Below the pieces are notes generated by a model. That model was not told the DNA's origin. It worked only from the letters and a program-made list of their open reading frames with translations, and did no database searches. DNA of 64,000 nt from Erythrobacter insulae. Its GTDB lineage: Bacteria > Pseudomonadota > Alphaproteobacteria > Sphingomonadales > Sphingomonadaceae. The DNA lies in contig NZ_VHJK01000001.1 of the NCBI RefSeq assembly GCF_007004095.1, positions 2,546,501-2,610,500 of the forward strand. Reading direction: 5' to 3'. Positions 7,959-27,356 of the stretch are shown here, piece after piece. Numbering within the stretch: the stretch's first letter is position 1; each line of letters opens with the position of its first letter. A program made the position numbers and the translations under genes.

Positions 7959-8330
7959 TCAGCCCGCTACGATTTTGGCTTCGGCGAATGACAGCAATCC
8001 GCCATAGGTTTCCAGCATTTCGCCATCGACGTCATCATCTTCGATGACGATGTCCAGTTGATCTTCCATTTCGGTCAGCAGGCCAGCGACCGCCATCGAG
8101 TCCAATTCAGGCAAGTGGCCAAACAGACCGGATTCGTCGGTAAACGCATCTGCGATTTCGCGATCAATGCCCAAAACTGCGACCAGAATGTCTTTTAACG
8201 AGGAGTCGATTGCCGCCCTGCTCATACCAAGCTTGGACGTGGCACTATCTTCGGCGCCGATCGCGGGGTCGTGTTCAGCGGCATTGCTAACGCCGTCGGA
8301 CGCATTGTTGCGGACAGGGGTGGTGTTCAT
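7959..8330 (-). CDS. acyl carrier protein, exosortase A locus
   Basis: A 123-residue acyl carrier protein. The carrier domain occupies roughly residues 40-120, with the phosphopantetheine attachment serine at position 78 in LPELDSMAVAGLL. It probably holds an acyl or aminoacyl group loaded by the nearby AMP-forming ligase. About 35 residues of polar, low-complexity sequence precede the domain; an internal ATG at codon 36 (8225) would remove this tail and could be the true start. Eighty-two bases separate it from the upstream minus-strand gene. No 4'-phosphopantetheinyl transferase gene is in the window. Confidence 0.88.
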   Translation of the reverse strand: MNTTPVRNNASDGVSNAAEHDPAIGAEDSATSKLGMSRAAIDSSLKDILVAVLGIDREIADAFTDESGLFGHLPELDSMAVAGLLTEMEDQLDIVIEDDDVDGEMLETYGGLLSFAEAKIVAG

Positions 8331-9461: not shown

Positions 9462-11030
9462 ATGCAAACCAGTCCAGACCAATTCCAACCCGCGCTTGAT
9501 CCTGCACCGCGTCCGCTTGATCACCTTGCCGAATTGGCGGGTACTGGCGGATACGGCGCGCGGCCTGCATTGGTGCTTCGCGATGCTGTATTTAACCATG
9601 ATGAGTTAAGACAGCGTATCGATAATCTTGCAGGTTGGTTGGCGCGGGAAATTGGCACCGCAGGCGCGCGGGTGGCCAGCTGGGCTGCCAAAGGGGAGCT
9701 GACGTGCCTCATGCCGCTTGCTGCGGCGCGGGCAGGGTTGGTCCATGTGCCGATCAATCCCCTGCTCAAACGCGCGCAGGCCGCGCACATTCTGGCGGAT
9801 AGCGGTTCGGTAATGCTGATCGCGACAAAGTCTCGCATCGCGTCACTTGATGACGGCGATATCCCTTCGGATTGCGGTGTGATCGAAGAGAATGATGCGC
9901 TTTCAGCTGCGCAGACGGCCGGTTTAACGCTTGGCCCCTCGAATTATGATCCCAATGACTTAACGGCGATTCTTTATACCAGCGGTTCAACAGGCAGGCC
10001 CAAAGGGGTGATGTTAAGCCACGCCAATCTCTGGCTGGGCGCGGTTAGTGTCGCGCATTATCTCAAAATGGCGCGCGATGATGTTACGCTTGCGGTGCTG
10101 CCTTTGTCGTTTGACTATGGTCAGAACCAATTGCTTTCAACCTGGTATGCGGGCGGCAGCGTTGTCCCGCTTGATTTTCTGTTTCCCCGCGATGTCGCAA
10201 AGGCTTGCGCCCGCCATTCTGTCACAACATTGGCTGCGGTCCCGCCGCTTTGGGTGCAATTGACCGAGATGGAGTGGCCCGCCGAGGCCGTCTCTGCGAT
10301 GCGCCGTATGACCAATAGCGGGGGAGCTTTGACCCCAGATCTGGTCCGAGATTTACGCGGAATTTTTCCGAAGTCTGATCTGTATCCAATGTACGGTTTG
10401 ACCGAGGCATTTCGCTCCACTTTTCTCAATCCAGCGCTGGTGGATTCCCACCCCACCTCCATGGGCCAAGCGATACCTTTTGCGGAAATTCTGGTTATCA
10501 ATGACGCTGGCGATGTTGCCGGACCTGATGAAGAAGGCGAGCTGGTGCATTGCGGGCCGTTGGTTGCCCAAGGGTACTGGCAAGATCCGGAGCGTACGGC
10601 GCAGCGTTTCAAACTGGCTCCGGCGCAATCACAATATGGCGGCACTGCGGTCTGGTCGGGCGATAGAGTGCGGCGCGACACCGATGGATTGCTCTATTTC
10701 GTGGGCAGGCGCGATGCCATGATTAAAAGCGCAGGCAACCGGATCAGCCCGCAAGAGATTGAAGAAGCGGCAATTGCAACCGATCTGGTCGCAGAAGCGG
10801 TGGCATTTGGATTGCCTGATGAACGGTTAGGTCATGCTGTGCATCTTGTGGTTCGCGGCTCCGATGATGCACAAGAACAGGCCAAGCTGCCCAAAATGCT
10901 CAAACAGGAATTGCCCAATTTCATGCAACCTCATGCAATCCATTGGAAGAAAGCTATGCCGCTGAACCCCAACGGCAAGATTGATCGCACGGCCCTTTAC
11001 CGCGAATTCGCAGGGGAGCAGTCAGCATGA
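9462..11030 (+). CDS. AMP-forming acyl-CoA ligase, exosortase A system-associated
   Basis: A 522-residue ANL-superfamily enzyme that adenylates a carboxylic acid and passes it to CoA or a carrier protein. The phosphate loop ILYTSGSTGRPKGVMLSH is near residue 170. The adenine region contains PMYGLTEAF, the hinge has SGDRVRRDTDGLLYFVGR, and the C-terminal catalytic lysine is in NPNGKIDR. Its place next to an acyl carrier protein and a PLP decarboxylase suggests it loads that carrier in XrtA-linked glycan modification; the substrate is unknown. It overlaps the following gene by four bases. Confidence 0.92.
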   Translation: MQTSPDQFQPALDPAPRPLDHLAELAGTGGYGARPALVLRDAVFNHDELRQRIDNLAGWLAREIGTAGARVASWAAKGELTCLMPLAAARAGLVHVPINPLLKRAQAAHILADSGSVMLIATKSRIASLDDGDIPSDCGVIEENDALSAAQTAGLTLGPSNYDPNDLTAILYTSGSTGRPKGVMLSHANLWLGAVSVAHYLKMARDDVTLAVLPLSFDYGQNQLLSTWYAGGSVVPLDFLFPRDVAKACARHSVTTLAAVPPLWVQLTEMEWPAEAVSAMRRMTNSGGALTPDLVRDLRGIFPKSDLYPMYGLTEAFRSTFLNPALVDSHPTSMGQAIPFAEILVINDAGDVAGPDEEGELVHCGPLVAQGYWQDPERTAQRFKLAPAQSQYGGTAVWSGDRVRRDTDGLLYFVGRRDAMIKSAGNRISPQEIEEAAIATDLVAEAVAFGLPDERLGHAVHLVVRGSDDAQEQAKLPKMLKQELPNFMQPHAIHWKKAMPLNPNGKIDRTALYREFAGEQSA

Positions 11031-12259
11031 AGAGCAAAGCGCTTGGCCCGATGCCGACTGGTTATTCGGCGATTGATGGCGAATTGGCGATTGGCGGACA
11101 CACGGCCAGCGCTCTGGTCGCAGAGGCCGGGAGGACGCCGTTATTTGTGTATTCCCGAGATCATCTGAATGCGCGCATGGCGCAATTGCGAGCGGTCTTG
11201 CCGAGCCGGATCGGCGTGAATTATGCGATCAAAGCGAACCCGCATCCCGATGTCTTGCGGCATATGCAGCCGTTGGTGGATGGTTTCGATATCGCCTCCT
11301 CGGGAGAGCTGGTCATGGCGCAAAATGCCGGGCTTGATCCGGCCCGCATCAGCTTTGCCGGACCGGGTAAGCGCGATGATGAGCTGGAGGCTGCGATTGC
11401 AGCAGGCGTCACGCTGAACTGCGAATCCGAAGGCGAGGCCAATCGCTCGCTAACGATCGGACAGCGCATCGGCAAAGCGCCGCGCATGGCCATCCGCGTC
11501 AATCCGTCGTTCGAGCTCAAAGGATCTGGCATGAAAATGGGCGGAGGCGCCAAACCTTTCGGGGTGGATGCCGACAGGGTGCCAGCCCTTGCCAAGCAGA
11601 TTATGGCCGAAGGTGCCGAATGGCGCGGCCTGCATATTTTCACCGGCAGTCAGGCATTGAATGCCGATGCAATCATCGAAGCGCAGGGCAATGTCCTTGA
11701 TCTCGCCGCGGAATTGGGTGCACAAATCGGGACTTCGCTGCCCAAGCTGAATATGGGCGGCGGGTTTGGCATCCCGTATTTCCCCAAAGAAGAAGCACTG
11801 GATCTGCCCGCAGTCGGTGCGGCCTTACATCGGCGTGTTGCCGATCTTCCACCGGAGCTTGCCGAAACTGAGCTGTGTCTGGAGCTGGGCCGGTATCTGG
11901 TTGGCGAGGCAGGCGTGTATTTGTGCCGCGTGATTGATCGCAAGGACAGCCACGGCACAACCTATCTTGTCACTGATGGCGGGCTGCATCACCAGCTGGC
12001 TGCATCGGGCAATTTTGGCACCGTAGTCCGGCGAAATTATCCCGTTGCAATTGCAAACAAGTTTGATGCTGAACCAGACGACATCGTAAATGTTGTGGGC
12101 TGTCTTTGTACGCCGCTCGATCGCTTAGCCGATCTGGCACACCTGCCACGCGGCGACGTGGGCGATCTGGTCGCGGTGTTTTGCGCGGGGGCTTACGGCG
12201 CGACAGCGTCTCCCGCCGCGTTTCTGGGGCATGGCCCGGCGGCAGAAATATTGGTCTAG
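11027..12259 (+). CDS. PLP-dependent decarboxylase, exosortase A system-associated
   Basis: A 410-residue fold-type III PLP enzyme of the diaminopimelate/ornithine decarboxylase family. The PLP lysine is in VNYAIKANPHPD (about residue 68). The glycine-rich phosphate site is LNMGGGFGIPYF, and the VGCLCTPLD cysteine and CAGAYGATAS tyrosine segments complete the active site. The XrtA-associated subfamily probably makes an amine from an amino acid for coupling to the acyl group made by the neighbouring ligase; this role is inferred. It starts in an ATGA overlap with the ligase gene. A 187-base gap follows before the export operon. Confidence 0.9.
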   Translation: MKSKALGPMPTGYSAIDGELAIGGHTASALVAEAGRTPLFVYSRDHLNARMAQLRAVLPSRIGVNYAIKANPHPDVLRHMQPLVDGFDIASSGELVMAQNAGLDPARISFAGPGKRDDELEAAIAAGVTLNCESEGEANRSLTIGQRIGKAPRMAIRVNPSFELKGSGMKMGGGAKPFGVDADRVPALAKQIMAEGAEWRGLHIFTGSQALNADAIIEAQGNVLDLAAELGAQIGTSLPKLNMGGGFGIPYFPKEEALDLPAVGAALHRRVADLPPELAETELCLELGRYLVGEAGVYLCRVIDRKDSHGTTYLVTDGGLHHQLAASGNFGTVVRRNYPVAIANKFDAEPDDIVNVVGCLCTPLDRLADLAHLPRGDVGDLVAVFCAGAYGATASPAAFLGHGPAAEILV

Positions 12260-12446
12260 AACCGGGTTAACACATCGTAAACCACTGTCCCGAAACGGGA
12301 TAGGGCCTCAAATTGGGCCGTATCACTAATATTATGTTCACCATTTTCAGCCAGAGAGAACGGGTCATTCGCGTGTCCCGATGCCGCAGGTCGCTCCTGC
12401 ACTTTCGTATCGAGGCCCGCAGCGCAAAGGCCAAGGATACGTATCA
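12260..12446. other. intergenic region ahead of the exopolysaccharide export run
   Basis: A 187-base gap between the PLP decarboxylase and the export lipoprotein. It holds a small perfect hairpin at 12288-12300 (TCCCG-AAA-CGGGA) without a T-run, an A/T-rich patch around 12325-12350, and the ribosome binding site AAGGA about 10 bases before the ATG at 12447. It is the only sizeable gap in the forward half of the XrtA locus, so a promoter for the ten-gene run is likely here. I cannot place -35/-10 boxes with confidence. Confidence 0.4.
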
Positions 12447-13094
12447 ATGTTTACCCCGCTGTCATTTTCTCGTTTTGCAGGCATAGTATTTGCCCCATTT
12501 GCGCTTGCCGCTTGTGCCAGTCCGCCGGGCACTCAATTGCCTGCTGCGACATTCAACACGCAATCTGCTCAGGCGCCGACTGATGATTACATCCTCGGCC
12601 CGCTTGATCAGATCACTGTCCATGTTTGGCGCAATCCTGAATTGTCTGCCGAAGACATTCAGGTGCGCCCGGATGGCAAGATCACAATTCCTCTGGTTCA
12701 GGATATGGTGGCCGTGGGCAAAACCCCGACCCAGCTTCAGGAAGATATCAAAACCGAGCTGAGCGAATATATCGAGCAGCCCATCGTCTCGGTTATCGTC
12801 AATGAATTCAATGGCGCTTTGCCTCAGTTAATCCGGATTACGGGCGCTGGCGCGGTTCCTGCTGCGCTGGCTTACCGCGCGAACATGACTGTCCTTGATG
12901 CGATGATCGCTGTTGGCGGGCTCGGGGAGTTTGCCGCCGGTAACCGCGCGACGCTGACCCGGTTTGATGGGAAAGCCGGTAAGAACAAGATTTACCGTCT
13001 GCGGCTCAAAGATCTCCTGAATAAAGGCGATGCGACAGCCAACGTCGCGCTGAAACCTGGCGACACCATTTCAATCCCGGAGAGCCGTTTCTAA
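12447..13094 (+). CDS. polysaccharide export lipoprotein, XrtA system (Wza-like)
   Basis: A 215-residue outer-membrane polysaccharide export protein of the Wza/KpsD family. A hydrophobic leader ends in the lipobox LAACAS (Cys near residue 20). The Poly_export domain follows with DDYILGPLDQITVHVWRNPE and VRPDGKITIPLV, then an SLBB-like domain with IRITGAGAVPAALAYR and ending KPGDTISIPESRF. It probably forms the exit channel for the locus polysaccharide. The ATG at 12447 has AAGGA upstream; earlier in-frame starts do not precede a signal sequence. Fifteen bases separate it from the chain-length gene. Confidence 0.93.
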   Translation: MFTPLSFSRFAGIVFAPFALAACASPPGTQLPAATFNTQSAQAPTDDYILGPLDQITVHVWRNPELSAEDIQVRPDGKITIPLVQDMVAVGKTPTQLQEDIKTELSEYIEQPIVSVIVNEFNGALPQLIRITGAGAVPAALAYRANMTVLDAMIAVGGLGEFAAGNRATLTRFDGKAGKNKIYRLRLKDLLNKGDATANVALKPGDTISIPESRF

Positions 13095-13109
13095 CGGGCG
13101 CGCTGTATT

Positions 13110-14633
13110 ATGAACGAGATTTTTGAAGAACTGCGCACGGCGCTTCATTCGATCTGGCATCGCCGCTGGATCGCGATTGGTGTTGCCTGGGCGGTGTGTT
13201 TGCTCGGATGGCTGGTCGTTGCAACGATCCCCAATTCGTATCAGTCCAAAGCCCGCATCTATGTTGATGTTGACGATGTACTATCCGAACAATTGGGCAT
13301 TGCCGGTGATGGCCGCGAAGAAATCATGCGGGTGCGCCAAACTCTGGTGAGCACCAAGAATCTGCAAAAGGTGATCAATTCCACCAAACTGGGTGAAGAA
13401 GTGATCGAGGCAACCCAGATGGATTCTGCAGTTGCCGCCCTGAGCAAGAATGTTCAGGTCACCAGTCAACAGGATAACCTGTTCGAGATTATCGCGACCG
13501 TGGGGAAGAGCGATCTTTCCGATGCAGAAAACGCTGTTCTCGCCCGTAATGTTGTCCAGAAACTTCTCGATATCTTCCGCGAGGAGCACATCTCAGGCAA
13601 CCGTGCAGAGATCAATAAAGCCATTGCAGAGCTCGATGATCAACTGGACGAACGCAAAGAGGAACTGGAGGCGGCCGAACAGCGGCGGCTTGCGTTCGAA
13701 TCGCAATATCCCGAACTGATTGGCGGGTCGGAAACACTTTCCACCAAGATCCAGCAAGCCCGCACCGAATTGCGCGACAATGCAGCCGATCTTGCTGCGG
13801 CGACAAGCTCGTTCGCGGCGATCAACGGTCAGCTTGCCAGCACTCCGCGCACAATTGTTGGCGGACAAGACGCTACCGGTCCTCAGGCCTCGCTGCTTCA
13901 GGCACAAAGCCAATTGGCCGCGTTGCGCGGGCGCGGATTGAAAGATGGGCATCCCGATATTGTCGCGATGACAAAACAGGTGGCTCTGCTGCAAAAACAG
14001 GTCGAGCAAGCTGGGCCGAATGACGCAGGTGGCACGCCAAACCCGGCCTATTCATCATTGGTCGCGATCCGGGCAGAGCGTCAGGCGGGCGTAGAAGCCT
14101 TGCAGGCGCGCCGTGCAGGTTTGCAGTCAACCATCGCTGCGTTGATGGCCAGCCAGGCGACCGAACCAGAAGTCGCCGCCGAAGCAAACCGCATCAGCCG
14201 CGATTACGAAGTGCTGCGCAAAAACTACGAAGATCGCCTGCAGGACCGCGAAGAAATTCGCACACGCGGCAATGTCGTTGATGAAACCAGCCAGTACAAA
14301 TTCGATCTGATTGATCCGCCAATAGTACCGCAGAAACCAGCGGCGCCTAACCGTCCGCTGCTGTTGCTTGGTGTGCTCATCGTTGGTCTGGGCGCCGGAG
14401 CGGCGGTCGCATACGGCTTGGGCCAGCTCAAATCGAGCTTTGCCACGCCGCAAAAACTGGAACGTACTTTTGATATGCCGGTGATCGGGTCGATCTCGCT
14501 CACCATGTCCGAAACCGCGCGCGCGCTTCAACGCCGCCGTCTCAAACAATTTGCCGGAGCCTGCGCAGGGCTTGGCGGAGTGTTTGTGATCTTGCTTGCG
14601 ATCGAGGTTGTCTCGGTCTCGACCGTCGCGTGA
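13110..14633 (+). CDS. polysaccharide chain length determinant, XrtA system (Wzz/Wzc-N type)
   Basis: A 507-residue inner-membrane polysaccharide co-polymerase. It has one transmembrane helix near residues 20-40 (WIAIGVAWAVCLLGWLVV), a long periplasmic coiled-coil region (about 150-400) and a second helix near 425-445 preceded by the proline-rich PPIVPQKPAAPNRP. A third hydrophobic stretch lies at the extreme C-terminus. It controls chain length and works with the tyrosine autokinase encoded next, 22 bases downstream; the kinase domain is thus a separate protein here. Confidence 0.93.
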   Translation: MNEIFEELRTALHSIWHRRWIAIGVAWAVCLLGWLVVATIPNSYQSKARIYVDVDDVLSEQLGIAGDGREEIMRVRQTLVSTKNLQKVINSTKLGEEVIEATQMDSAVAALSKNVQVTSQQDNLFEIIATVGKSDLSDAENAVLARNVVQKLLDIFREEHISGNRAEINKAIAELDDQLDERKEELEAAEQRRLAFESQYPELIGGSETLSTKIQQARTELRDNAADLAAATSSFAAINGQLASTPRTIVGGQDATGPQASLLQAQSQLAALRGRGLKDGHPDIVAMTKQVALLQKQVEQAGPNDAGGTPNPAYSSLVAIRAERQAGVEALQARRAGLQSTIAALMASQATEPEVAAEANRISRDYEVLRKNYEDRLQDREEIRTRGNVVDETSQYKFDLIDPPIVPQKPAAPNRPLLLLGVLIVGLGAGAAVAYGLGQLKSSFATPQKLERTFDMPVIGSISLTMSETARALQRRRLKQFAGACAGLGGVFVILLAIEVVSVSTVA

Positions 14634-14655
14634 CCGGCCCCAAAGGACACAGGAA

Positions 14656-15663
14656 ATGACTGAACAGAGCAAAATCAATCAGGACGGCGCCAAACGCACC
14701 TCGTTGCTTGAACGCGCAGACCGTGTTTTCGGGCTGGATAATCTTGGCCCGGCCAAGGTGCCATCAAACCTGCCCAAGCCCCGCGTTCCTGCGCCTCGGC
14801 CAGCGCCGGTTGCCGCTCAACCCGCTGCTGTACCTGCTGCTGCGCCGCAACCCACTGCTGCAGCCGTACCGACAGCCTATGCCGCGCCGCAACCGCAAGC
14901 CGAACCCACTCCAGAACCCGAACCAGCCGTTGCCTTGTCCGGCCCGTATATGGAAATCGACAGCGAACATCTTCGCGATGCGGGGCTGATCGTACCGGAG
15001 GATCCGGTTACGGCGCTGCTCGAAGAATTTCGGATCGTAAAGCGCGACATCATTGCCGATGCCCGCGCCGGTGGTGATCCGAAACAACGCCGCATTCTGG
15101 TCTGCTCCCCGCATCAGGGCGAGGGCAAGACATACTGTGCTACCAATCTCGCAATTGCTCTTGCAGCAGAGCGGGATGTCGAGGTTCTGCTGGTTGATGC
15201 CGACGTTATCCGTCCATCGGTTGCCCGGCGGCTTGGTATTAGCGCAGAACGGGGCCTGATGGACGCTCTGGCCAATCCATCGCTTCGCCCGGAGAAATTG
15301 GCGGTCCGAACCGATATCGAAGGCCTGTTCGTGCTTCCTGCCGGAACCACGGGTTCGCACGATGCCGAATATCTGGCGAGCGAACGGACTGGCGAGATAT
15401 TAGACCGGCTGACGCGCGGCGCACCGAACCGCTATGTAATTTTTGATACTCCGCCTGCGCTCGCATCTTCAGCGGCCGCAGAATTGGCGTCCCATGTCGG
15501 GCAATCCGTTTTGGTTGTCCGCGCCGATGAAACAAGCCGGGCTGCGCTCGAAGATGCGCACCAGCTTCTGTCGGCCTGTCCCACTATCAAATTGCTGCTC
15601 AATGCAGCTCATTTCAGTCCGTCCGGTCGCCGCTTTGGCGAATATGGCGGGCAGGAGGAATGA
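14656..15663 (+). CDS. tyrosine autokinase of the XrtA system (CpsD/CapB family)
   Basis: A 335-residue cytoplasmic bacterial tyrosine kinase that partners the upstream chain-length protein. Residues about 40-95 are a Pro/Ala-rich linker. The kinase domain shows Walker A SPHQGEGKTYCATNLA (about 151-166), Walker A' LLVDADVIRPS and Walker B VIFDTPPALAS. The C-terminal tail has only one tyrosine (FGEYGGQEE) rather than the usual tyrosine cluster, so autophosphorylation may be limited. An AGGA lies just ahead of the ATG at 14656. The gene is followed after two bases by an outer-membrane protein gene. Confidence 0.9.
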   Translation: MTEQSKINQDGAKRTSLLERADRVFGLDNLGPAKVPSNLPKPRVPAPRPAPVAAQPAAVPAAAPQPTAAAVPTAYAAPQPQAEPTPEPEPAVALSGPYMEIDSEHLRDAGLIVPEDPVTALLEEFRIVKRDIIADARAGGDPKQRRILVCSPHQGEGKTYCATNLAIALAAERDVEVLLVDADVIRPSVARRLGISAERGLMDALANPSLRPEKLAVRTDIEGLFVLPAGTTGSHDAEYLASERTGEILDRLTRGAPNRYVIFDTPPALASSAAAELASHVGQSVLVVRADETSRAALEDAHQLLSACPTIKLLLNAAHFSPSGRRFGEYGGQEE

Positions 15664-15665
15664 CC

Positions 15666-17279
15666 ATGACTAAACTCCGCAATACCCTTCTGATCGGCAT
15701 CGCGACCGGTTTTGTCAGTGCACCGGCTTTCGCTCAGGAAGCCGAAGAAGAGCAACGCTCTGTATTCGTGCAGCCTTATATCGAGGTGAACCAGATCCTT
15801 TCGGCTGAATTGCAGCCGGGCGATGATGTGGTGACCTTTACCCAGATTGCAGCCGGTGTGGATGTGAACGCTCAGGGCCGCAACAGCGGCGCGTCCGTCT
15901 CTGTCCGTTACGAACGCAATATCGGATATGGCGATCAGGTGGACACAGACACGGTTAGCGGGATCGCCCGCGGCTATGTCTCCGTCATCCCGCGCGCTTT
16001 GACATTCGAAGCGGGCGGGCTGGCCAGCCGCACCCGCGTCGATGGCGGCGGTGCTGTTACCCAGAACCCCTTGGTCCGCGAAGACGCAGCGAGCCAGATT
16101 TACAGCGTCTATGCCGGGCCAAGTTTGAACACACAGGTCGGCGCGGTCGAAGTCTCGGGTGTTGCCCGGGTTGGCTATAACCGCTTCGAAACAGAAAACG
16201 CCGTGTTCGACCAGAACGGCGATCCTGTGGACGTATTCGATGACAGTGTGACCTATAACGGGCAAATCCGAGCAGGAACCAGAGCAGGCGATCCGTTGCC
16301 AGTGGGTGTCGGTGTTACCGCCGGTATTTATCAAGAAGATATCTCGAACCTTGATCAAAGGGTCCGCGATGTCTTTGTGCGAGGCGATGTAACCGTTCCG
16401 GTGACTGACTCGCTCGCATTGGTTGGCGGCGTTGGATATGAAAATGTCGAAGTGTCGAGCCGTGATGCCCTGCGCGATGTAAACGGTGATCCCGTTCGCG
16501 GCGCCGATGGCCGGTTGGTCACGGATTCCGCATCACCGCGCATCCTTGCTTTTGATGTCGATGGCCTGTTGTGGGATGTCGGCGTGTTATGGCGACCCAG
16601 TTCGCGCACGTCGCTGGCTGCCAGCGTTGGCCGCCGCTACGATTCCACCACCTATTACGGCAGTTTCAATTACGCGCCGAGTTCGCGCAGTTCTTTCAAC
16701 GTCAACGTGTATGACGGGGTGAGCGGGTTTGGCGGACGTTTGAACAACGCTCTGGCCGATCTGGGCACTGATTTTGAGGCCTTGCGCAACCCGGTCACCG
16801 GCGATTTCGGCGGTCAGGTTAGCGGCGCCGATGGCGGCGGTCTGGTCAATTCGCTTGGTTCGGTGCGGTCTTCCGCATTCCGGGGCCGGGGTGTCAATGC
16901 CAGCTATCAACGGCGCATCGGTCAATCCACCGCAGTCCTTGGCGCAGGGTATGACCGGCGCGAGTTTATCGGCGCACCGGGCACTGTGCTCGCGGCTGTC
17001 GATGGCGTGATTGACGAAAGCTATTACATTGCTGGCGGGTTCAACCGGGCCATCGGCCGCAGTGCGACCTTCGCCGCGAATGCCTATGTGAACTGGTTCG
17101 AAAGCGGCACTGACAATGGCGATGCCACCGGATTTGGCGCGTCGGCGGCTTATGGCCGGTCCATCACAAGCAAGCTGACAGCACGAGCCGCCTTGTCGGT
17201 TGATTACATCGACAGCGAATTCACCGCAGAAGATTTTGCCACAGCAACCGCGTTGCTGGGCCTGCGCTACAACTTCTGA
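15666..17279 (+). CDS. outer-membrane beta-barrel protein of the XrtA locus
   Basis: A 537-residue secreted protein with a signal peptide ending in APAFA-Q near residue 23. The rest alternates polar and aromatic residues in the manner of an outer-membrane beta barrel, with many short Gly/Ser/Asp-rich turns, and ends in LLGLRYNF, a C-terminal aromatic typical of barrel insertion. It belongs to the PEP-CTERM-associated outer-membrane family usually found here and may help export or anchor the polysaccharide. I chose the ATG at 15666 because AGGAGG at 15653-15658 is seven bases away; an ATG at 15660 is too close to it. Confidence 0.85.
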   Translation: MTKLRNTLLIGIATGFVSAPAFAQEAEEEQRSVFVQPYIEVNQILSAELQPGDDVVTFTQIAAGVDVNAQGRNSGASVSVRYERNIGYGDQVDTDTVSGIARGYVSVIPRALTFEAGGLASRTRVDGGGAVTQNPLVREDAASQIYSVYAGPSLNTQVGAVEVSGVARVGYNRFETENAVFDQNGDPVDVFDDSVTYNGQIRAGTRAGDPLPVGVGVTAGIYQEDISNLDQRVRDVFVRGDVTVPVTDSLALVGGVGYENVEVSSRDALRDVNGDPVRGADGRLVTDSASPRILAFDVDGLLWDVGVLWRPSSRTSLAASVGRRYDSTTYYGSFNYAPSSRSSFNVNVYDGVSGFGGRLNNALADLGTDFEALRNPVTGDFGGQVSGADGGGLVNSLGSVRSSAFRGRGVNASYQRRIGQSTAVLGAGYDRREFIGAPGTVLAAVDGVIDESYYIAGGFNRAIGRSATFAANAYVNWFESGTDNGDATGFGASAAYGRSITSKLTARAALSVDYIDSEFTAEDFATATALLGLRYNF

Positions 17280-17298
17280 CCGACGGAGCGATATACTC

Positions 17299-18471
17299 AT
17301 GTACGATCATTTTTACGGTTTCAGCGGGCGGCCATTTCAGCTCACCCCAGACCCCGAATTCTACTTTGAGAGTTCGAGCCACAAAAAGGCGATGTCCTAT
17401 CTTGGATATGGTCTGAACCAGGGCGAGGGCTTTATCGTTATCACAGGTGAGGTTGGCGCTGGCAAATCCACGCTGGTCGCGCACCTGATGGAACGTATTA
17501 ATCCCGAAGAACTCACTGTGGCGCAGGTGGTAACCAGCGCGCTGGATGGTGAGGAATTGATCCACGTGGTCGCGCAAGCCTTTGGCATCGCGATTCATGG
17601 CAAGGATAAAGCGAGCGCTCTGGGCGCAATCGAACGGTACCTTCAAGAAGAAGCGCGCGAAGGAAAGCGTTGCCTGCTGGTGGTTGATGAATGCCAGAAC
17701 CTTGATCTGACCGCTCTCGAAGAAATGCGGATGCTGTCCAATTTCCAGCTTGGCTCGCATCCTTTGCTACAAACACTGTTGCTTGGTCAGCCCGAATTTC
17801 GCCGTACATTGGCGCATCATCCTGATCTCGATCAACTGCGCCAGCGCATCATCGCATCGCATCACCTCGAAGCGTTGGATGAAGAAGAGGTCGAGGATTA
17901 CATCATGCACCGGCTGAAACATGTCGGTTGGCAAGGGCGCCCGACGCTAAGGCCGGGATTGTTGCCGGCATTGTACCGGGCAACAGATGGCATTCCGCGG
18001 CGCGTCAATCAGGTGATGAACCGTCTGTTATTGCTGGGTGCAATCGAAGAAAAGGACGCTTTGACCATCAAAATGCTCGACGCGGTCATCGAAGAGATGG
18101 GGGCCGACGCCGCACGCGGATCAAGTGCCCAGCCAAGCCCGCTGAGTATCGAACCGTCGGTCGAAACCGCTGATCCTGCACCGGATCAGAACATTGACAG
18201 CGTCCCCGCAACAGAGGTCGCAGCTCTGCTGGCTCAGCGTGATGCACGCACAGCCGAACTGGAAGCCGCGCTTGGCGAGCTTCAGGCCGCCGGTACATCA
18301 AGCTTTGATCATGAACCGATCCAGCTTTCGGAAATACCGGACGAAGCGGAAGTAAATGCCGCGCTCGACCGGATTGAACAGCGCCTTGAAGAGCAGGAGC
18401 AATCCTTCCGTCATGTCCTGACAATGCTGATCGAATGGCTTGAGGACAACAAAGCGCGCGAGGCCGCCTGA
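17299..18471 (+). CDS. AAA ATPase, XrtA/PEP-CTERM locus (ExeA-like secretion ATPase)
   Basis: A 390-residue AAA ATPase of the ExeA/GspA-like group standard in exosortase loci. It starts YDHFYGFSGRPFQLTPDPEFY, near-invariant in this family. Walker A is ITGEVGAGKSTL (about residues 47-58) and Walker B LLVVDECQNL; RQRIIASHHLE and GIPRRVNQVMNRLL fall in the sensor region. The last 90 residues are acidic and probably coiled-coil (EAEVNAALDRIEQRLEEQEQ). Its role in export is inferred from position. The ATG at 17299 gives the conserved N-terminus. Confidence 0.92.
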   Translation: MYDHFYGFSGRPFQLTPDPEFYFESSSHKKAMSYLGYGLNQGEGFIVITGEVGAGKSTLVAHLMERINPEELTVAQVVTSALDGEELIHVVAQAFGIAIHGKDKASALGAIERYLQEEAREGKRCLLVVDECQNLDLTALEEMRMLSNFQLGSHPLLQTLLLGQPEFRRTLAHHPDLDQLRQRIIASHHLEALDEEEVEDYIMHRLKHVGWQGRPTLRPGLLPALYRATDGIPRRVNQVMNRLLLLGAIEEKDALTIKMLDAVIEEMGADAARGSSAQPSPLSIEPSVETADPAPDQNIDSVPATEVAALLAQRDARTAELEAALGELQAAGTSSFDHEPIQLSEIPDEAEVNAALDRIEQRLEEQEQSFRHVLTMLIEWLEDNKAREAA

Positions 18472-18473
18472 AT

Positions 18474-19397
18474 ATGTCGGCGACCGATCCTGCTGCCTCG
18501 ATAAAAACTCCGATCATCAATGGATTATCGGTCGACGTCGAAGACTGGTTTCAGGTCGGCGCGTTTGAAACCGTCATTGACCGCAATGATTGGGACAGTC
18601 TGAAGACACGGGTCGAAAGTAATGTGGACCGGATCATCGATCTGTTCGCACAATCCGGCGTGAAGGCGACTTTTTTCACCCTTGGTTGGGTGGCAGAACG
18701 CCATCCGGCATTGATCCGCCGGATTGCCGATGCAGGTCACGAAGTCGCCAGCCATGGGTATGACCATGCGCGGGTCTTTACATTTGACCGATCAGGATTT
18801 GCTGCGGACATTCGCAAAGCGCGCACAATCCTTGAGGACGCATCGGGTCAATCCATTACCGGATACCGCGCGCCCAGTTTCTCAATCGACCCGCGCAATT
18901 TGTGGGCTTTTGAAGAGTTGGCAGAGCAAGGCTATATCTATTCCTCCAGCGTCGCACCCATCACGCATGATCATTATGGCTGGAGAGAGGCGCCGCGTTT
19001 CGCGTTCAAGCCTGTGTCGTGGTCGCAAATGATCGAGATCCCAGTGACAACAGCAATGCTGGGCGCAAAACGGCTTGCCGCGGGCGGGGGCGGTTTCTTC
19101 CGCGTTCTGCCCTATGCCTTTTCGCGCTGGGCCATTCGTCAGGTGAATGCCCGCGACGAGCGGCCGGCGGTATTTTACTTCCACCCTTGGGAGATCGACC
19201 CCGATCAACCGCGCGTTCCCGATGCGCCGCTTCGTTCCAAATTGCGCCATTACACTGGCCTTGATCAGATGGCGGGCAAGCTGCGCGATCTGACGGGCGA
19301 GTTTGCATGGGGCCGTATGGATGCCGTGGCAAAGATAGAGGCGCGCCGAGCGCAGCCATTTTTCGTCGATAAGCCGGCCAAGGATATCGCGGCATGA
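18474..19397 (+). CDS. polysaccharide deacetylase, XrtA-associated (with DUF3473 tail)
   Basis: A 307-residue NodB-type carbohydrate esterase. Seen: the catalytic aspartates in LSVDVEDWFQ, the metal-binding histidines in EVASHGYDHARVF, and YRAPSFSID, followed by the extra C-terminal domain typical of XrtA-linked members (VFYFHPWEIDPDQPR). It probably removes N-acetyl groups from the exported polysaccharide. The protein lacks a signal peptide, so it may act in the cytoplasm or on lipid-linked intermediates. It begins two bases after the ATPase gene and overlaps the FemAB gene by four bases. Confidence 0.93.
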   Translation: MSATDPAASIKTPIINGLSVDVEDWFQVGAFETVIDRNDWDSLKTRVESNVDRIIDLFAQSGVKATFFTLGWVAERHPALIRRIADAGHEVASHGYDHARVFTFDRSGFAADIRKARTILEDASGQSITGYRAPSFSIDPRNLWAFEELAEQGYIYSSSVAPITHDHYGWREAPRFAFKPVSWSQMIEIPVTTAMLGAKRLAAGGGGFFRVLPYAFSRWAIRQVNARDERPAVFYFHPWEIDPDQPRVPDAPLRSKLRHYTGLDQMAGKLRDLTGEFAWGRMDAVAKIEARRAQPFFVDKPAKDIAA

Positions 19398-20455
19398 ATG
19401 CGCCGATGAAAATTGTCCATTCAGCGCGCGCCGTCGATCTGAATGATAATCGATGGGCTTCGCGCATTGATGAATTTGTCCGCGAACAGGGGGCCAGTGT
19501 ATTCCACCGGCCCGCCTGGCTGCGCGCTGTCGAAGCGGGCACGGGCCAGCGCGCATACGGATTTGTCACAGAACAGCTTGGCGTTATCAGCGGATGGCTA
19601 CCGCTTACCGAAGTGCGCTCTATCCTGTTCCCCAACACTCTGGTCTCAAGCGGTTTCGGCGTCGGCGGCGGCATCTGCACTGATAGCCACGAGGCAGCAA
19701 AGTCGATCGCGCAAATCGCTCGGGATCACGCGGTCCAAATGGGATTTTCAAGCATTGAGCTGCGCGGAGGAAACATTCCCGATGGCTGGCAGGTTTGGGA
19801 TGATAAACATTGCGGTTTCGAACGAGATCTGGCCGAGGATGACGAGGCAGAATTGCTCGCCATCCCACGCAAGGCCCGCGCCGAGGTTCGCAAGGGTCTC
19901 AAGAATGATCTTGAGGTGCGGGTAGGGCACGAAAAACGCGATCTGGATGCGCATTATGCGGTCTATAGCGAGAGCGTGCGAAATTTGGGCACACCTGTTT
20001 TTCCGCGCAAACTTTTCAAAGCGATGATTGATGTGTTTCCCGGCCAAGCGGATATTTTGACCGTGTTAAAACGGGGCGCGCCGATTGCCAGCGTTTTCTC
20101 ACTCTATCACGGCGGTGCGGTTCTGCCGTTCTGGGGCGGCGGAACATTGGCCGCGCGAAACGAACGCGCGAATGAACGGATGTATTACGAGCTGATGCTG
20201 CATGCGCGGCGGCAAGGCATGACACGGTTCGATTTTGGCAGGTCCAAAACCGGCAGCGGTCCTTACAATTTCAAGAAGAATTGGGGATTTGATCCGGTGC
20301 CGCTGACTTACGGACAGTGGACAGCACCGGGCGAAGCTGCACGCGATATTGATCCGACCAATGAAGCCTATAGCCGCAAGATCGACCTTTGGAAAAAGCT
20401 TCCCCTGCCGGTTGCAAATATGATCGGTCCATTGATCGCCCGTGATCTGGCCTGA
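19394..20455 (+). CDS. FemAB family protein, XrtA/PEP-CTERM system-associated
   Basis: A 353-residue FemAB-like protein with two tandem GNAT-like folds. Typical segments are the N-terminal FVREQGASVFHRPAWLRAV, the central KARAEVRKGLKNDLEV, and the C-terminal GMTRFDFGRSKTGSGPYNFKKNWGF. Family members transfer amino acids or acyl groups; in XrtA loci the role is probably amino-acylation of the polysaccharide or its carrier. It overlaps the deacetylase gene (ATGA) and is 12 bases from the glycosyltransferase gene. Confidence 0.92.
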   Translation: MNAPMKIVHSARAVDLNDNRWASRIDEFVREQGASVFHRPAWLRAVEAGTGQRAYGFVTEQLGVISGWLPLTEVRSILFPNTLVSSGFGVGGGICTDSHEAAKSIAQIARDHAVQMGFSSIELRGGNIPDGWQVWDDKHCGFERDLAEDDEAELLAIPRKARAEVRKGLKNDLEVRVGHEKRDLDAHYAVYSESVRNLGTPVFPRKLFKAMIDVFPGQADILTVLKRGAPIASVFSLYHGGAVLPFWGGGTLAARNERANERMYYELMLHARRQGMTRFDFGRSKTGSGPYNFKKNWGFDPVPLTYGQWTAPGEAARDIDPTNEAYSRKIDLWKKLPLPVANMIGPLIARDLA

Positions 20456-20467
20456 GGCTGATTGACT

Positions 20468-21694
20468 ATGGGCGAAATCCTCTTCCTCGCGCACCGCATT
20501 CCGTTTCCGCCCAATCGCGGTGACAAGATCCGCGCGCATCATTTGCTTCACAAGCTTGCTTGTATGGCGCCGGTCCATGTCGGCTGTTTCGCAGAGAATG
20601 ACGAAGACCGAGCGGGCGAGGGCGCACTTTGCGCAATTGCTGCGAGCTACAAAATCGTCAACCGGAACAAACCACTGGTTTTGGCAGGCGCCGAAGCAGT
20701 GCTGTCGGGTAAACCGGTCAGCCTGACTGCATTTCATAGCGCGCAGCTTGAAAGCTGGGTGCGTGAGACGATTGCCACACGCAATATCGCCACGATTGTG
20801 ATCTTTTCCGGGCAAATGGGTCAATACATTCCAGATGATTTTGACGGGCGTGTCGTGATTGACCTTTGTGATGTCGATAGCGCCAAATTTGAATCTTATG
20901 CCGAGGCGGGCGAGCGGGTTTGGCTGAATTCGCGTGAAGGCCGTTTACTCGCAGCTGAAGAGGCGCGGTTATGCAGACGCGCCGATACGACGATCCTGAT
21001 CAGTGATAACGAGGCCGAGCTTTTTCGAAGCCGCCTTCCCGCATCACAAGGTGCAGGCGTAACCGTTCTGGGTAACGGGATCGATGCAGACTTCTTCAAT
21101 CCTTCGCGCGTTCAACCCGATGTACAAATATCGGGCCGGCCCGGTCCGCATTTCGTGTTTACCGGACAGATGGATTACCGCCCGAATGAACAAGCGGCAT
21201 TGTGGGTCCTTGATCAATTACTGCCCGCAATACGCAGTTCGTATCCTGATGCAGAGTTTCACATTGTCGGGCGTAACCCAACGGCGAAACTGCTGGCGCG
21301 CAGCAAACAGGACGGTCTGACTATTCATGGCGAAGTGCCCGATGTGCGGCCTTTCATCGCCGCCGCCGATTGCGTGGTTGCGCCGCTGCTGATTGCGCGC
21401 GGAGTTCAGAATAAAGTGCTGGAAGCGATGGCGATGGCCCGTCCGGTGCTTGTCACACCCGAAGCAGCAACCGGTATTGCGGCAACAGATGACGCGCATT
21501 GGATGATCTGCGTTGCAGATGCACAGATCATGACCGCGCGTATGCAAACGCTCCTGGGCAGACCCCAAGCCAAATCGGCTATGGGCGAGGCTGCTCGGCA
21601 ATTTGTGGTCGATTTCCACGCCTGGGACGCAATGCTCGCACCGCTTGAAACCATGGTTGGGATCGCCGCGCAGGAGAACCGCAATGCCGCCTGA
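20468..21694 (+). CDS. glycosyltransferase, TIGR03087-type XrtA system family
   Basis: A 408-residue GT4-like glycosyltransferase of the PEP-CTERM/XrtA subfamily. The N-terminus ILFLAHRIPFPPNRGDKIRAHHLL is nearly diagnostic. The C-terminal Rossmann domain has VFTGQMDYRPNEQAALWVLD and the nucleotide-sugar site QNKVLEAMAMARPVLVT. It adds a sugar from a nucleotide donor to a growing lipid-linked glycan at the cytoplasmic face. I chose the ATG at 20468; a TTG at 20462 is possible. It is the only recognisable glycosyltransferase in this locus. Its end overlaps the xrtA start by 11 bases. Confidence 0.92.
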   Translation: MGEILFLAHRIPFPPNRGDKIRAHHLLHKLACMAPVHVGCFAENDEDRAGEGALCAIAASYKIVNRNKPLVLAGAEAVLSGKPVSLTAFHSAQLESWVRETIATRNIATIVIFSGQMGQYIPDDFDGRVVIDLCDVDSAKFESYAEAGERVWLNSREGRLLAAEEARLCRRADTTILISDNEAELFRSRLPASQGAGVTVLGNGIDADFFNPSRVQPDVQISGRPGPHFVFTGQMDYRPNEQAALWVLDQLLPAIRSSYPDAEFHIVGRNPTAKLLARSKQDGLTIHGEVPDVRPFIAAADCVVAPLLIARGVQNKVLEAMAMARPVLVTPEAATGIAATDDAHWMICVADAQIMTARMQTLLGRPQAKSAMGEAARQFVVDFHAWDAMLAPLETMVGIAAQENRNAA

Positions 21695-22721
21695 GGCATC
21701 CAATACGCAGCCATCATGGCAACAGGAAAGCGTGATGGACTATGTCCCTGAAAACTGGCGTGCGCCGCTCGGCCTGCTCGTTTTGTGCTCCGCGTTGCTG
21801 ATCTTTGTAACCGCCCGCGAATGGGGCGAGATGTTCCATCAATGGTGGAACATCGACACCTACACCCACATCTTGCTCGTTCCGCTTATTATCATCTGGC
21901 TTGTTTGGCTGCGCAATGATGATCTGATCAAGATCGCCCCTAAACCATGGATGCCCGGTCTCGCTTTGGTGGCGGCGGGCCTTGGCCTGTGGTTGGTAGG
22001 GCGGACTACCGAGATTAATCTGTTCGCTCATGCAGGCGCCGTTGGCGCGTTGCAGGCTGCGGTCGCGGCGACTTTGGGATTACGCGTAGCTTTCGCGCTG
22101 GCACTGCCGCTGGCTTTTGCAGTTTTCCTCGTTCCGTTTGGTGACGAATTGATACCGGCCTTGCAGCTGGTCACAGCAGAAATCGCCATTGCGCTTACGC
22201 ATTGGAGCGGGGTGCCTGCGGTGGTTGACGGGATATTCATCGAAACACCGGTCGGCCTGTTCATCGTGGCGGAGGCGTGTTCGGGGGTTAAATTTCTTGT
22301 CGCGATGGTCACGCTATCTGTGCTGGTCAGCTTTACCCGTTTTGACAGCTGGAGCAGGCGCGCGGCCTTTATCGCGGCCTCGATCATCATTCCCATTATT
22401 GCCAACGGTATCCGCGCTTGGGGCACGATCTATATCGCGCAAAGCCAAGGCGTCGAGTTCGCAGCGGGCTTTGATCACATTTTCTATGGGTGGATATTCT
22501 TCGCGCTCGTCGTTGTCATTCTGATCGCAGGCGCGTGGCGGTTTTTCGAACGCGAACCGGATGATTATGGGTGGACCGCAGATGATCTTTCCACGTGGGA
22601 TCTGCTGGCTCGCGCTGAACGGCGTTCGCCGAGCATTTCCGCGACAGCAGGAGCGATTGCTGCGATGGCATTTGCCGCCGCGATGCTGGCTGTGATTGTC
22701 GCCCCGATGGCAATCGGCTAG
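21684..22721 (+). CDS. xrtA: exosortase A (XrtA)
   Basis: XrtA is an integral membrane cysteine protease/transpeptidase that recognises C-terminal PEP-CTERM signals. The 345-residue protein has about eight hydrophobic helices. The catalytic residues are visible: Cys199 in AEACSGVKF, Arg244 in NGIRAWG and His265 in FDHIFYGW. After residue 290 come a soluble segment and one more hydrophobic helix (about 318-342), then it stops. Many XrtA proteins continue at this point into an EpsI (DUF3485) domain, which is absent here. The ATG at 21684 has AGGAG seven bases upstream and overlaps the glycosyltransferase gene. Confidence 0.94.
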   Translation: MPPEASNTQPSWQQESVMDYVPENWRAPLGLLVLCSALLIFVTAREWGEMFHQWWNIDTYTHILLVPLIIIWLVWLRNDDLIKIAPKPWMPGLALVAAGLGLWLVGRTTEINLFAHAGAVGALQAAVAATLGLRVAFALALPLAFAVFLVPFGDELIPALQLVTAEIAIALTHWSGVPAVVDGIFIETPVGLFIVAEACSGVKFLVAMVTLSVLVSFTRFDSWSRRAAFIAASIIIPIIANGIRAWGTIYIAQSQGVEFAAGFDHIFYGWIFFALVVVILIAGAWRFFEREPDDYGWTADDLSTWDLLARAERRSPSISATAGAIAAMAFAAAMLAVIVAPMAIG

Positions 22722-24629: not shown

Positions 24630-24668
24630 AGCCTGTTTCATTTGTTTCAAAAACTGCGCCCGATCAAG

Positions 24669-24680
24669 CTCACTTGTGAG
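24669..24680. promoter_or_regulatory. short palindrome upstream of RpfF-like gene
   Basis: A 12-base inverted repeat, CTCAC-TT-GTGAG, in the 199-base A/T-rich gap between the amidotransferase and crotonase genes, about 150 bases before the crotonase start. It is short enough to be chance, but this is the only clear dyad in the gap and could be an operator. No convincing -35/-10 pair was found. Confidence 0.2.
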
Positions 24681-24828
24681 TCAGCTTGTTGGATAAGTGT
24701 AAAATAGTAATTGCCAACCGACTCCAACCTCGCTTACCATCAAGTCTACAAGAGCCTAAAATAGGCCAGTCGCACGTTTGCTGACGAGGAACAGCTTTCG
24801 AAAATCGGGTTGTATTGGAGTGAGCATT

Positions 24829-25752
24829 ATGGATAGCGGCGCTAATCGTGCGGTTCCATTGACTGACGTAGAAGAATTATACGCAGAAAGCGCGCTTCAC
24901 GCGTCCATCCCTCAGGAACTTTTCTCATTACAAGAACTCGACGTCTTGTACGACGACACCACCGCAACTCTTTGGTCTTATATGAGCCCTGAGGGGCGGC
25001 CCAGCTTTACTCCGGCGATGCTCAATGATTTTGAGCAATGGCAGCAATTGATCGGGCAGGGCTTCGGGCCCGACAAAGTGCCTCTGCGGTATCTTGTGCT
25101 CGGCAGCCGGGCCGATGATGTGTTCTGCTTTGGCGGCGATCTTGATCTGTTTCAGCAGTTGATCCGCGAGCGCGATAGAGCAGGGTTGGTGCATTACGGG
25201 CATCGGTGTTGCGCTATTCTTGACCGGAATATTCGTACGCTCGATATCCCGATGCTGACGATTGGCTTGGTTCAGGGAACGGCGCTGGGCGGTGGTTTCG
25301 AGGCCTTGTTGTCGTTTGATTTCATCATTGCAGAACGTCAGGCGACGTTTGGTCTGCCAGAGATTATGTTTGGTCTGTATCCCGGAATGGGCGCACACGC
25401 ATTGCTGTCTCGCAAATTAGGCAGCGCCATGGCTGACCGAATTATCCTTTCAAATGAGACTTATACGGCTGAACAAATGTACGATATGGGCATTGTTCAC
25501 GCTTTGGCTGAGCCGGGTGACGGTCTGAACGCGACGCGCGATTTCATCAAAAAGTCCGAGCGCCGCCACGGCGGTCTGGTTGGTGCGCGCCAGGCAACCA
25601 AGCGCGTGTGGCAATTGGAGCTGGCTGAGCTCAATAAGATCACAGAAATGTGGGCCGACACGGCGCTTCAATTGCGCGAGCAAGACCTGAAGGTGATGAG
25701 CCGTCTGGTTGCGGCTCAAGCCCGGTTGGCAGAACGTATTGCCGCGGCTTGA
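24829..25752 (+). CDS. crotonase-family protein resembling DSF synthase RpfF
   Basis: A 307-residue crotonase. It looks closer to RpfF, which makes the cis-2-unsaturated fatty acid signal DSF from acyl-ACP, than to housekeeping enoyl-CoA hydratases. The core GTALGGGFEALLSFDFIIAE and GLPEIMFGLYPGMGAH place two glutamates at 158 and 178, the same 20-residue spacing as the catalytic Glu141/Glu161 pair of Xanthomonas RpfF. About 80 residues precede the crotonase fold, as in RpfF, and YTAEQMYDMGIVHAL fits too. GGAG precedes the ATG at 24829; a GTG at 24820 is possible. No rpfC/rpfG partner is nearby. Function inferred. Confidence 0.75.
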   Translation: MDSGANRAVPLTDVEELYAESALHASIPQELFSLQELDVLYDDTTATLWSYMSPEGRPSFTPAMLNDFEQWQQLIGQGFGPDKVPLRYLVLGSRADDVFCFGGDLDLFQQLIRERDRAGLVHYGHRCCAILDRNIRTLDIPMLTIGLVQGTALGGGFEALLSFDFIIAERQATFGLPEIMFGLYPGMGAHALLSRKLGSAMADRIILSNETYTAEQMYDMGIVHALAEPGDGLNATRDFIKKSERRHGGLVGARQATKRVWQLELAELNKITEMWADTALQLREQDLKVMSRLVAAQARLAERIAAA

Positions 25753-25758
25753 TGCGGG

Positions 25759-26880
25759 TTAACCCTCCGCCCCGTGTCCCAGAGCCATATATTCGTCGCT
25801 TTGCATTTCATTGAGGCGGCTCGCCGTTCGCTGAAATTCAAAACTTCCGTCGCCTGCCGGATATAAATCATCGGGCAGGGAGGCTGCGGTCGCGAACAGT
25901 TTGACCCGCTGCTCATACAGGGCGTCGATCAGTTTGGTGAACCGGATCGCCTCGTTGCGTTTTTCAGGGCTCATGATCGGTATGCCGACCAGAAACACAG
26001 TATGAAACTCGCGCGCGATCGCGAGGTAATCAGCTGCTCCGCGATTTTCACTACACAGCTTTTTAAAGCTGAACACTGCCACGCCTTTAAGAGCTTTGGG
26101 CACATGAAGTGTGCGGCCTCCACCAAGGTCGAGTTCACCAGTGGGAACATTCGCCGCATCTTCAGGTGCGAAATCGGTCAGACGGAAAAACGCTTCGCGG
26201 ACTTTGTTGGTTGCCGGTTCACCAATCGGCGTATGCCAAGTCGCCAGGCCGCCGATCCGGTCAAGTCGGTAATCCATCGGACCATTCAACTCGACCACAT
26301 CCATCTCGCTCTCAACCAGATCGATAAAGGGTAGGAATAGCGAACGATTCAGCCCGTCTTTATACAAATCGCGAGGCGGGCGATTGGAGGTGGTGACAAT
26401 AACCGTTCCAGACGCCATCAATGCAGTGAAGAAACGGCCCATGATCGCCGCATCGGCGGTGTTCGTGACGACCATCTCATCAAAGGCAAGACACCGCGTA
26501 TCCGCGGCCATACTTAGCGCGACCGAAGTAAGCGGATCGTCACGTTTGGCTTTGCGTGCCTTTGTGATCAACGCGTCAACTTCCAGCATAAAAGCGTGAA
26601 AGTGCACGCGGCGCTTTTGTTCAAGGTCAAGAGTTTCGACAAACAAGTCCATCAGCATCGATTTTCCGCGTCCGACGCCGCCCCACATATACACGCCGCG
26701 CGGGTCTGGTTTGCCGGTTGCGGTCCCCGTCAGCCGTTCAAACCAACTGCGTTTAGGTGGCCCTGCTTCCAATTCGTCTTGAAGTCGATGGAGCCGTTCG
26801 ACAGCGATTCTTTGCGCCGGATCGGGTTTAAGCTGGCCATCCGCAATAAGCTGCGCATACCGATCGAGCATCTTGGCCAT
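25759..26880 (-). CDS. zapE: cell division ATPase ZapE (AFG1-like)
   Basis: A 373-residue P-loop ATPase of the ZapE/AFG1 family, which associates with the Z ring and, in mitochondria, with membrane protein quality control. Seen: GVYMWGGVGRGKSMLMDLF (Walker A, near residue 65), FHAFMLEVD, RCLAFDEMVVTNTADAAIMGRFF (Walker B), and VTTSNRPPRDLYKDGLNR (sensor). The length is typical. It converges with the crotonase gene with six bases between stops, and its start overlaps the upstream thioesterase gene by one base. Confidence 0.94.
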   Translation of the reverse strand: MAKMLDRYAQLIADGQLKPDPAQRIAVERLHRLQDELEAGPPKRSWFERLTGTATGKPDPRGVYMWGGVGRGKSMLMDLFVETLDLEQKRRVHFHAFMLEVDALITKARKAKRDDPLTSVALSMAADTRCLAFDEMVVTNTADAAIMGRFFTALMASGTVIVTTSNRPPRDLYKDGLNRSLFLPFIDLVESEMDVVELNGPMDYRLDRIGGLATWHTPIGEPATNKVREAFFRLTDFAPEDAANVPTGELDLGGGRTLHVPKALKGVAVFSFKKLCSENRGAADYLAIAREFHTVFLVGIPIMSPEKRNEAIRFTKLIDALYEQRVKLFATAASLPDDLYPAGDGSFEFQRTASRLNEMQSDEYMALGHGAEG

Positions 26881-27356
26881 TAGCCGTTTTTGCGCGGGGT
26901 AAACTTGCGGATAATCCCGCTAAAGGCCGCAACGCAATCGTCACCTTGGACAACTTCTCCGCGAACAAACACAAGTTTCCCGGTTTCGCGCACGATACCG
27001 GTCAGCGCATCCAGTGGCCGCGTAGGGTCACCGCCACCGACAAATTGGGTGGAAAGCTCCAGTGATACCGAAGGACCGGCATTGCCGTTTCCGATCACAT
27101 GCATTGTCGTAAACATCGAAATATCAATCAGGCCCAGCGTCACTGCGCCATGAATTATCCCTTGCAGATTTTCATGGCGGCGTTCGGGAAACATCCGCAG
27201 ACGGCATTTTTCGCCGCCGCGGCTGGTTTCACGGCGGGTGATGAGTTTGCCCATCACCGCCCCGTTAAACAGGCTGTCATCCTTGAGATTCCAGTGATGC
27301 CAACCGGGGTTCTCCGGGTCTGGCAAATGGTCAAATACGTCGTCTGACAGCGCCAC
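26880..27356 (-). CDS. PaaI-type hotdog-fold thioesterase
   Basis: A 158-residue hotdog-fold protein of the PaaI/YdiI thioesterase group, which hydrolyses acyl- or aroyl-CoA thioesters. The conserved ENLQGIIHGAVTLGLIDISM gives the usual histidine-glycine catalytic stretch, and SLELSTQFVGGG the paired strand. Substrate unknown. It lies three bases after sdhB and directly before zapE, all minus strand, so the three probably form one transcript. Confidence 0.85.
   Translation of the reverse strand: MALSDDVFDHLPDPENPGWHHWNLKDDSLFNGAVMGKLITRRETSRGGEKCRLRMFPERRHENLQGIIHGAVTLGLIDISMFTTMHVIGNGNAGPSVSLELSTQFVGGGDPTRPLDALTGIVRETGKLVFVRGEVVQGDDCVAAFSGIIRKFTPRKNG

Follow-up and report, generated by a model that had tools for sequence, protein, structure and literature searches.

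DSF signaling has been described chiefly in pathogens of plants and humans. Two described systems come closest to the locus considered here. One is that of Xanthomonas campestris with its synthase RpfF (PDB 3m6m/3m6n), and the other is that of Burkholderia cenocepacia, with RpfF (BCAM0581, PDB 5fus) and RpfR (domain order FI-PAS-GGDEF-EAL), in which RpfF turns 3-hydroxyacyl-ACP into its cis-2-enoyl form by dehydration and sets the acid free (PMC12838280).

The window, that is, the whole stretch of 64,000 nucleotides that was analyzed, comes from the genome of Erythrobacter insulae (2.99 Mb, three contigs), and encodes, at 24829..25752 (+), a crotonase of 307 aa that is a putative cis-2-unsaturated fatty acid (DSF-family) synthase with the catalytic pair E158/E178. 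It resembles RpfF of X. campestris in its family, its catalytic glutamate pair and all of the listed pocket residues, but it lacks neighboring RpfC/RpfG genes, its genome encodes no RpfC sensor domain, it falls below the cut-off of the RpfF model NF053515, and it is located at an exosortase A (XrtA) locus. With the B. cenocepacia system it shares the enzyme family and a candidate receptor that also ends in GGDEF-EAL; this candidate, however, is membrane-bound, devoid of the FI and PAS domains and unlinked to the synthase, and no specific grouping with RpfR is seen for its GGDEF-EAL part. We consider it probable that the window encodes an RpfF-type synthase of the DSF family that was once paired, tail-to-tail, with a membrane sensor-GGDEF-EAL protein, that this pair has split, and that the signal acts through the displaced sensor, L155, on c-di-GMP.

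The enzyme family itself is not new. What is new, relative to the literature found, the coverage of which is partial, is the relocated synthase and the candidate membrane receptor class; within that incomplete coverage, no description was found of RpfF in connection with exosortase, Sphingomonadales or alphaproteobacteria, or of cis-2 signals in Erythrobacter. Should the two proteins be a working pair in Erythrobacteraceae, DSF signaling would extend to common marine bacteria, a membrane class would be added to the c-di-GMP receptors, and the exosortase A polysaccharide system would have a possible signal input.

The Gene and Its Family Placement

The preliminary description of the window pointed to an N-terminally extended crotonase with two RpfF-like glutamates beside the XrtA locus, and this is confirmed. 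The reading frame is real and complete, from an ATG at 24829 to a stop codon that ends at 25752. The gene starts 199 bp downstream of the amidotransferase gene of the XrtA locus, and 6 bp separate its end from the convergent zapE. The 199-bp region (24630..24828, +) contains an RBS-like GGAG close 5′ of the ATG and two weak sigma-70-like matches, versus a mean of 0.8 in shuffled sequences, and it is conserved among the relatives in short blocks only; the crotonase probably has its own promoter there. No recognized domain is found in the first 28 residues. Values of dN/dS versus close relatives are approximately 0.03-0.06 where computable, with dS near saturation, and an AlphaFold2 model based on ten close homologs (pLDDT 42) was left unused. 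The genome has one RpfF-family crotonase gene, along with eight weaker crotonase matches.

The counterparts of Glu141 and Glu161 in the aligned Xanthomonas RpfF are E158, within GGGFEA, and E178, within GLPE, the two glutamates being 20 residues apart in either protein, and all ten of the RpfF pocket and catalytic residues checked, from the list in PMC9864630, are identical in the crotonase (Xcc G85, L136, G137, G138, E141, E161, G169, M170, W258, and L276). Close to the pocket, the Erythrobacteraceae clade also shows substitutions peculiar to it (Cys for Xcc N83, Gly for D165, Asn for G192, and Ala for V259), so the product may differ. On the basis of family and residues, the enzyme would be bifunctional, dehydrating 3-hydroxyacyl-ACP to cis-2-enoyl-ACP and then hydrolyzing the thioester, to free a DSF-family signal.

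Against NF006452, the broad model for RpfF/DSF synthases, the crotonase scores 356 bits (1e-106), well past the curated cut-off of 177 bits and approximately 280 bits above any ordinary hydratase model (these score approximately 75 bits). The NCBI equivalog model for RpfF, NF053515, gives 202 bits, short of its cut-off of 550 bits; since an RpfR-linked homolog of the BDSF lineage (181 bits) and an RpfC/RpfG-linked homolog (239 bits) also fall below this cut-off, the failure says little. The solved Xanthomonas-type RpfF structures match the crotonase at 1e-51 to 1e-53, versus 1e-16 for the best ordinary hydratase, and the solved RpfF structures score 149-183 bits, versus 61 bits for that hydratase; chance cannot account for matches of this strength. 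In a maximum-likelihood tree, a branch of approximately 4.9 changes per site (support 100/99) divides the RpfF family from the hydratases encoded in the same genome. Within the family, the Erythrobacteraceae crotonases make a single clade (100/100), to which Sphingomonas parapaucimobilis is attached first (98/90) and G726 with Methylobacterium next (100/99), and the verified RpfFs of Xanthomonas and Burkholderia lie in the neighboring group (support for this join only 73/92). A Pfam ECH_1 match and a glutamate pair common among hydratases could also be taken to indicate an ordinary enoyl-CoA hydratase of fatty-acid degradation, but this reading is contradicted by the phylogeny and by the lead of NF006452 over the hydratase models, and we consider it highly improbable. 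The RpfF-like identity proposed previously, for which a phylogeny had been suggested as a check, is thus upheld: judged by sequence, the crotonase is a member of the RpfF family and not an ordinary enoyl-CoA hydratase.

Sensor Genes Beside the Synthase

RpfF-family homologs were collected over the order, the class and the phylum. In 50 of the 57 that lie outside the Erythrobacteraceae clade, the crotonase gene has an Rpf-type sensor gene as its neighbor, convergent in 45 cases and divergent in 5, and two of the seven homologs without such a neighbor run into a contig end. Among the examples scanned, L132 and L133 encode RpfC-like (HisKA-HATPase-REC-Hpt) and RpfG-like (REC-HD-GYP) proteins, L134 encodes a PRK10060/RpfR protein, and L131, from the same bacterial family as E. 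insulae, encodes an RpfC-like and a REC-PAS-GGDEF-EAL protein beside the crotonase. In the nearest outgroups (S. parapaucimobilis, Methylobacterium, and G726), a sensor-GGDEF-EAL gene is convergent with the crotonase gene in all cases. No sensor gene adjoins the synthase in the window or in the rest of the Erythrobacteraceae clade. With adjacency found in 50 of 57 homologs, it is the rule for the family, and the window gene is the exception.

A Candidate Receptor Elsewhere in the Genome

The preliminary description noted that no rpfC or rpfG was in the window and that a different receptor would be needed. Neither gene was found in the examined part of the window, and the whole genome has no RpfC sensor domain at E<=0.001 (query: the domain of an Erythrobacteraceae RpfC). 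For RpfR (FI-PAS-GGDEF-EAL, PRK10060 type), the best match in the whole genome covers GGDEF-EAL only; in a local tblastn search the genome's own match starts at RpfR residue 153, and thus has no FI domain. For RpfC, RpfR and the REC-PAS kinase alike, the matches in this genome are confined to shared kinase or GGDEF-EAL domains.

A specific candidate emerges from the nearest relatives. At the nearest outgroup locus (L115), the gene convergent with the crotonase gene encodes a membrane-PAS-GGDEF-EAL protein of 790 aa, the transmembrane N-terminus of which matches, among the GGDEF-EAL proteins of E. insulae that were examined, L155 (32% over 224 aa, E 9e-25), a membrane GGDEF-EAL protein of 653 aa encoded at G000:C1:2361145-2363106 (-), approximately 208 kb from the crotonase. 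The likely receptor could be recognized at this distance because related bacteria keep the two genes next to each other. The stated need for a different receptor is upheld, and it has a concrete candidate. When the N-terminal 254 residues of L155 alone were compared with 72,556 plasmid records, five matches were found, one in S. parapaucimobilis and four in Methylobacterium; the N-terminus of another GGDEF-EAL protein of the same genome, used as a control, had no match in the 72,556 plasmids. The same five records hold the closest plasmid relatives of the crotonase, and the sensor match is the EAL gene convergent with the crotonase gene (for NZ_CP090580, from coordinates); two of the Methylobacterium records are annotated with a 12-bp overlap of the two genes. 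The partner protein of S. parapaucimobilis has no PAS domain, can be aligned to L155 along almost the entire length (39%), and falls together with the Erythrobacter sensor proteins (support 86). Every full-length copy of the sensor retains intact GGDEF and EAL motifs, the N-terminus is strongly hydrophobic, and most copies possess an RNAGRP motif.

The crotonase/EAL pairs of S. parapaucimobilis YK209 and Methylobacterium radiotolerans JCM 2831, for which no published description was found in the literature searched, belong to the same RpfF subclade as the window crotonase (support 98/90 for the join with S. parapaucimobilis and 100/99 for that with L100 and M. oryzae) and possess the same sensor domain, but their genes are convergent neighbors, unlike those of the window genome, and the sensor of M. 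oryzae adds a PAS_7 domain. We propose that the ancestral crotonase gene stood tail-to-tail with a gene for a membrane-bound sensor-GGDEF-EAL protein, an arrangement seen in the nearest relatives, and that the pair would have split in the Erythrobacteraceae, where the synthase is found at the end of the XrtA locus and the sensor homolog approximately 208 kb away. The signal would bind the transmembrane N-terminal domain of the sensor, and the bound sensor would change c-di-GMP turnover by way of its GGDEF and EAL domains, both of them intact, as RpfR does in Burkholderia. As a prediction, the displaced receptor is concrete and can be tested.

The distribution of the sensor across the genus agrees with the neighbor evidence and adds little to it, being mostly shared by clade. 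The sensor is encoded in 27 of 61 genomes, 20 of them with the crotonase. Of the 22 crotonase genomes, the two without the sensor are 82% and 70% complete, and all 20 of adequate completeness carry it; 32 of the 39 crotonase-free genomes lack the sensor and seven keep it. The association has a Fisher p of 2e-8, which ignores relatedness. A species tree built from six genes implies five changes of the crotonase and four of the sensor, and independent pairs (two changing the same way, none the opposite way, three neutral) give p 0.5, in a test that is underpowered and by itself no proof.

The seven crotonase-free genomes that keep the sensor, the nonsignificant outcome of the phylogeny-corrected test, and the presence in E. 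insulae of several further GGDEF-EAL proteins and hybrid kinases would all fit a scenario in which a DSF-family acid is made but L155 is not its receptor, the product being sensed by another protein or affecting other species, and the position at XrtA being incidental. Against this, among the GGDEF-EAL proteins of this genome that were compared, only L155 has the sensor domain that adjoins the crotonases of the nearest relatives, and we regard such a scenario as unlikely.

A separate observation concerns one of the crotonase-free genomes of the genus, which encodes two proteins with an RpfC-like sensor domain close together (L178, G012:C1:2163000-2176000), possibly for eavesdropping.

Position at the Exosortase A Locus

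The region at 9.4-24.6 kb of the window is an exosortase A locus by NCBIfam (TIGR03098, 03099, 03027, 03007, 03015, 03006, 03019, 03087, 03109, and 03108). It begins with the XrtA-associated ligase (TIGR03098) and decarboxylase (TIGR03099), an export protein, a chain-length determinant and a tyrosine autokinase (9462..15663, +), the last matching TIGR03018 below the model cut-off. It continues with the XrtA-locus ATPase (TIGR03015), a polysaccharide deacetylase (TIGR03006), FemAB (TIGR03019) and a glycosyltransferase (TIGR03087) at 17200..21694 (+), followed by exosortase A (TIGR03109, 311 bits; 21603..22721, +), whose true start may be internal, and by the amidotransferase of the XrtA/PEP-CTERM system, asnB (TIGR03108; 22731..24629, +), the upstream neighbor of the crotonase. 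The convergent downstream neighbor is ZapE (AFG1 ATPase; 25759..26880, -). A small ORF at 7959..8330 (-), which has no Pfam match and by eye resembles an acyl carrier protein (FGHLPELDSMAV), belongs to the ligase/decarboxylase module, which is found beside the crotonase in genomes without XrtA as well.

In all of the Erythrobacteraceae clade loci examined, the crotonase gene is flanked on one side by exosortase A-type genes, either that for the XrtA amidotransferase or those for the ligase and decarboxylase, the latter sometimes accompanied by a homolog of the ATPase or deacetylase. On its other side, if the contig extends far enough, is zapE, beyond which a thioesterase-like ORF and then sdhB usually follow. 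In crotonase-free genomes, zapE is the direct neighbor of the amidotransferase gene, 3-8 bp away in three of the four cases checked, or else approximately 330 bp separate it from the decarboxylase gene.

Such constancy of place, kept even where XrtA is gone but the ligase and decarboxylase remain, together with the ACP-like ORF and the acyl ligase within the locus and with the clade-specific substitutions near the pocket, could indicate an accessory enzyme of the exosortase A locus or of the ligase/decarboxylase/ACP-like module, derived from RpfF and acting on an acyl thioester that this module carries, in polysaccharide or lipid modification, with no part in signaling. However, the crotonase is absent from most XrtA or ligase/decarboxylase loci of the genus, a 199-bp gap precedes its gene, it tends to occur in the same genomes as the displaced sensor, and the site that it shares with zapE and sdhB is conserved on the chromosome, so that the linkage can be inherited. 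We view an accessory role as quite unlikely.

How closely the crotonase is tied to XrtA can be judged from the 61 genus genomes, of which 48 encode XrtA, 22 the crotonase and 16 both. A co-occurrence test in these genomes revealed no dependence of the crotonase on XrtA: with XrtA found without the crotonase in 32 genomes and the crotonase without XrtA in six, the position is fixed, and neither gene needs the other. The tie to the adjacent polysaccharide locus suggested in the preliminary description thus holds as to position, always at the same locus end, and finds no support as to dependence; it is positional only. Control of the XrtA polysaccharide by the signal, as suggested by the position, is possible but unproven. 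We offer only tentatively the wider picture of a split DSF-type circuit, in which the synthase is fixed at the exosortase A exopolysaccharide locus, and an undescribed class of membrane sensor (a transmembrane domain with the RNAGRP motif plus GGDEF-EAL) would read the signal from elsewhere in the genome and set polysaccharide output via c-di-GMP.

On the other side of the crotonase gene (window 25759-27356), the percent identities of zapE and of the thioesterase-like ORF are out of step with those of the crotonase from one relative to the next (crotonase 88% and zapE 69% in L036, 79% and 80%, respectively, in L046), a pattern that suggests allele exchange in this region.

Other Members of the Family

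The survey reveals that RpfF-type crotonases with adjoining sensors are widespread in many alphaproteobacterial families, where they are annotated merely as 'crotonase/enoyl-CoA hydratase family protein.' One example is a separate and complete locus (L131:3892-9554, G822, of the same bacterial family as E. insulae) for RpfF, RpfC-like and REC-PAS-GGDEF-EAL proteins, with a crotonase 39% identical to that of the window. Four other Sphingomonadales genomes encode an RpfF-type crotonase that continues, at its C-terminus, into an iron-containing haem-oxygenase-like domain (PF14518), and this fused domain could further modify the fatty acid product; these genes (L031:1399-3285, L128:8019-9911, which equals L033, L129:7820-9886, and L130:6989-9016) are divergent from REC-PAS sensor genes. 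At L117:8410-10380 and L121:8651-10873, RpfF-family crotonases are extended at the N-terminus by approximately 350-450 residues that match no Pfam family. Finally, two Escherichia coli plasmids (NZ_CP060058.1 and NZ_CP060062.1, 22298-23047) carry an RpfF-family crotonase that is 31% identical.
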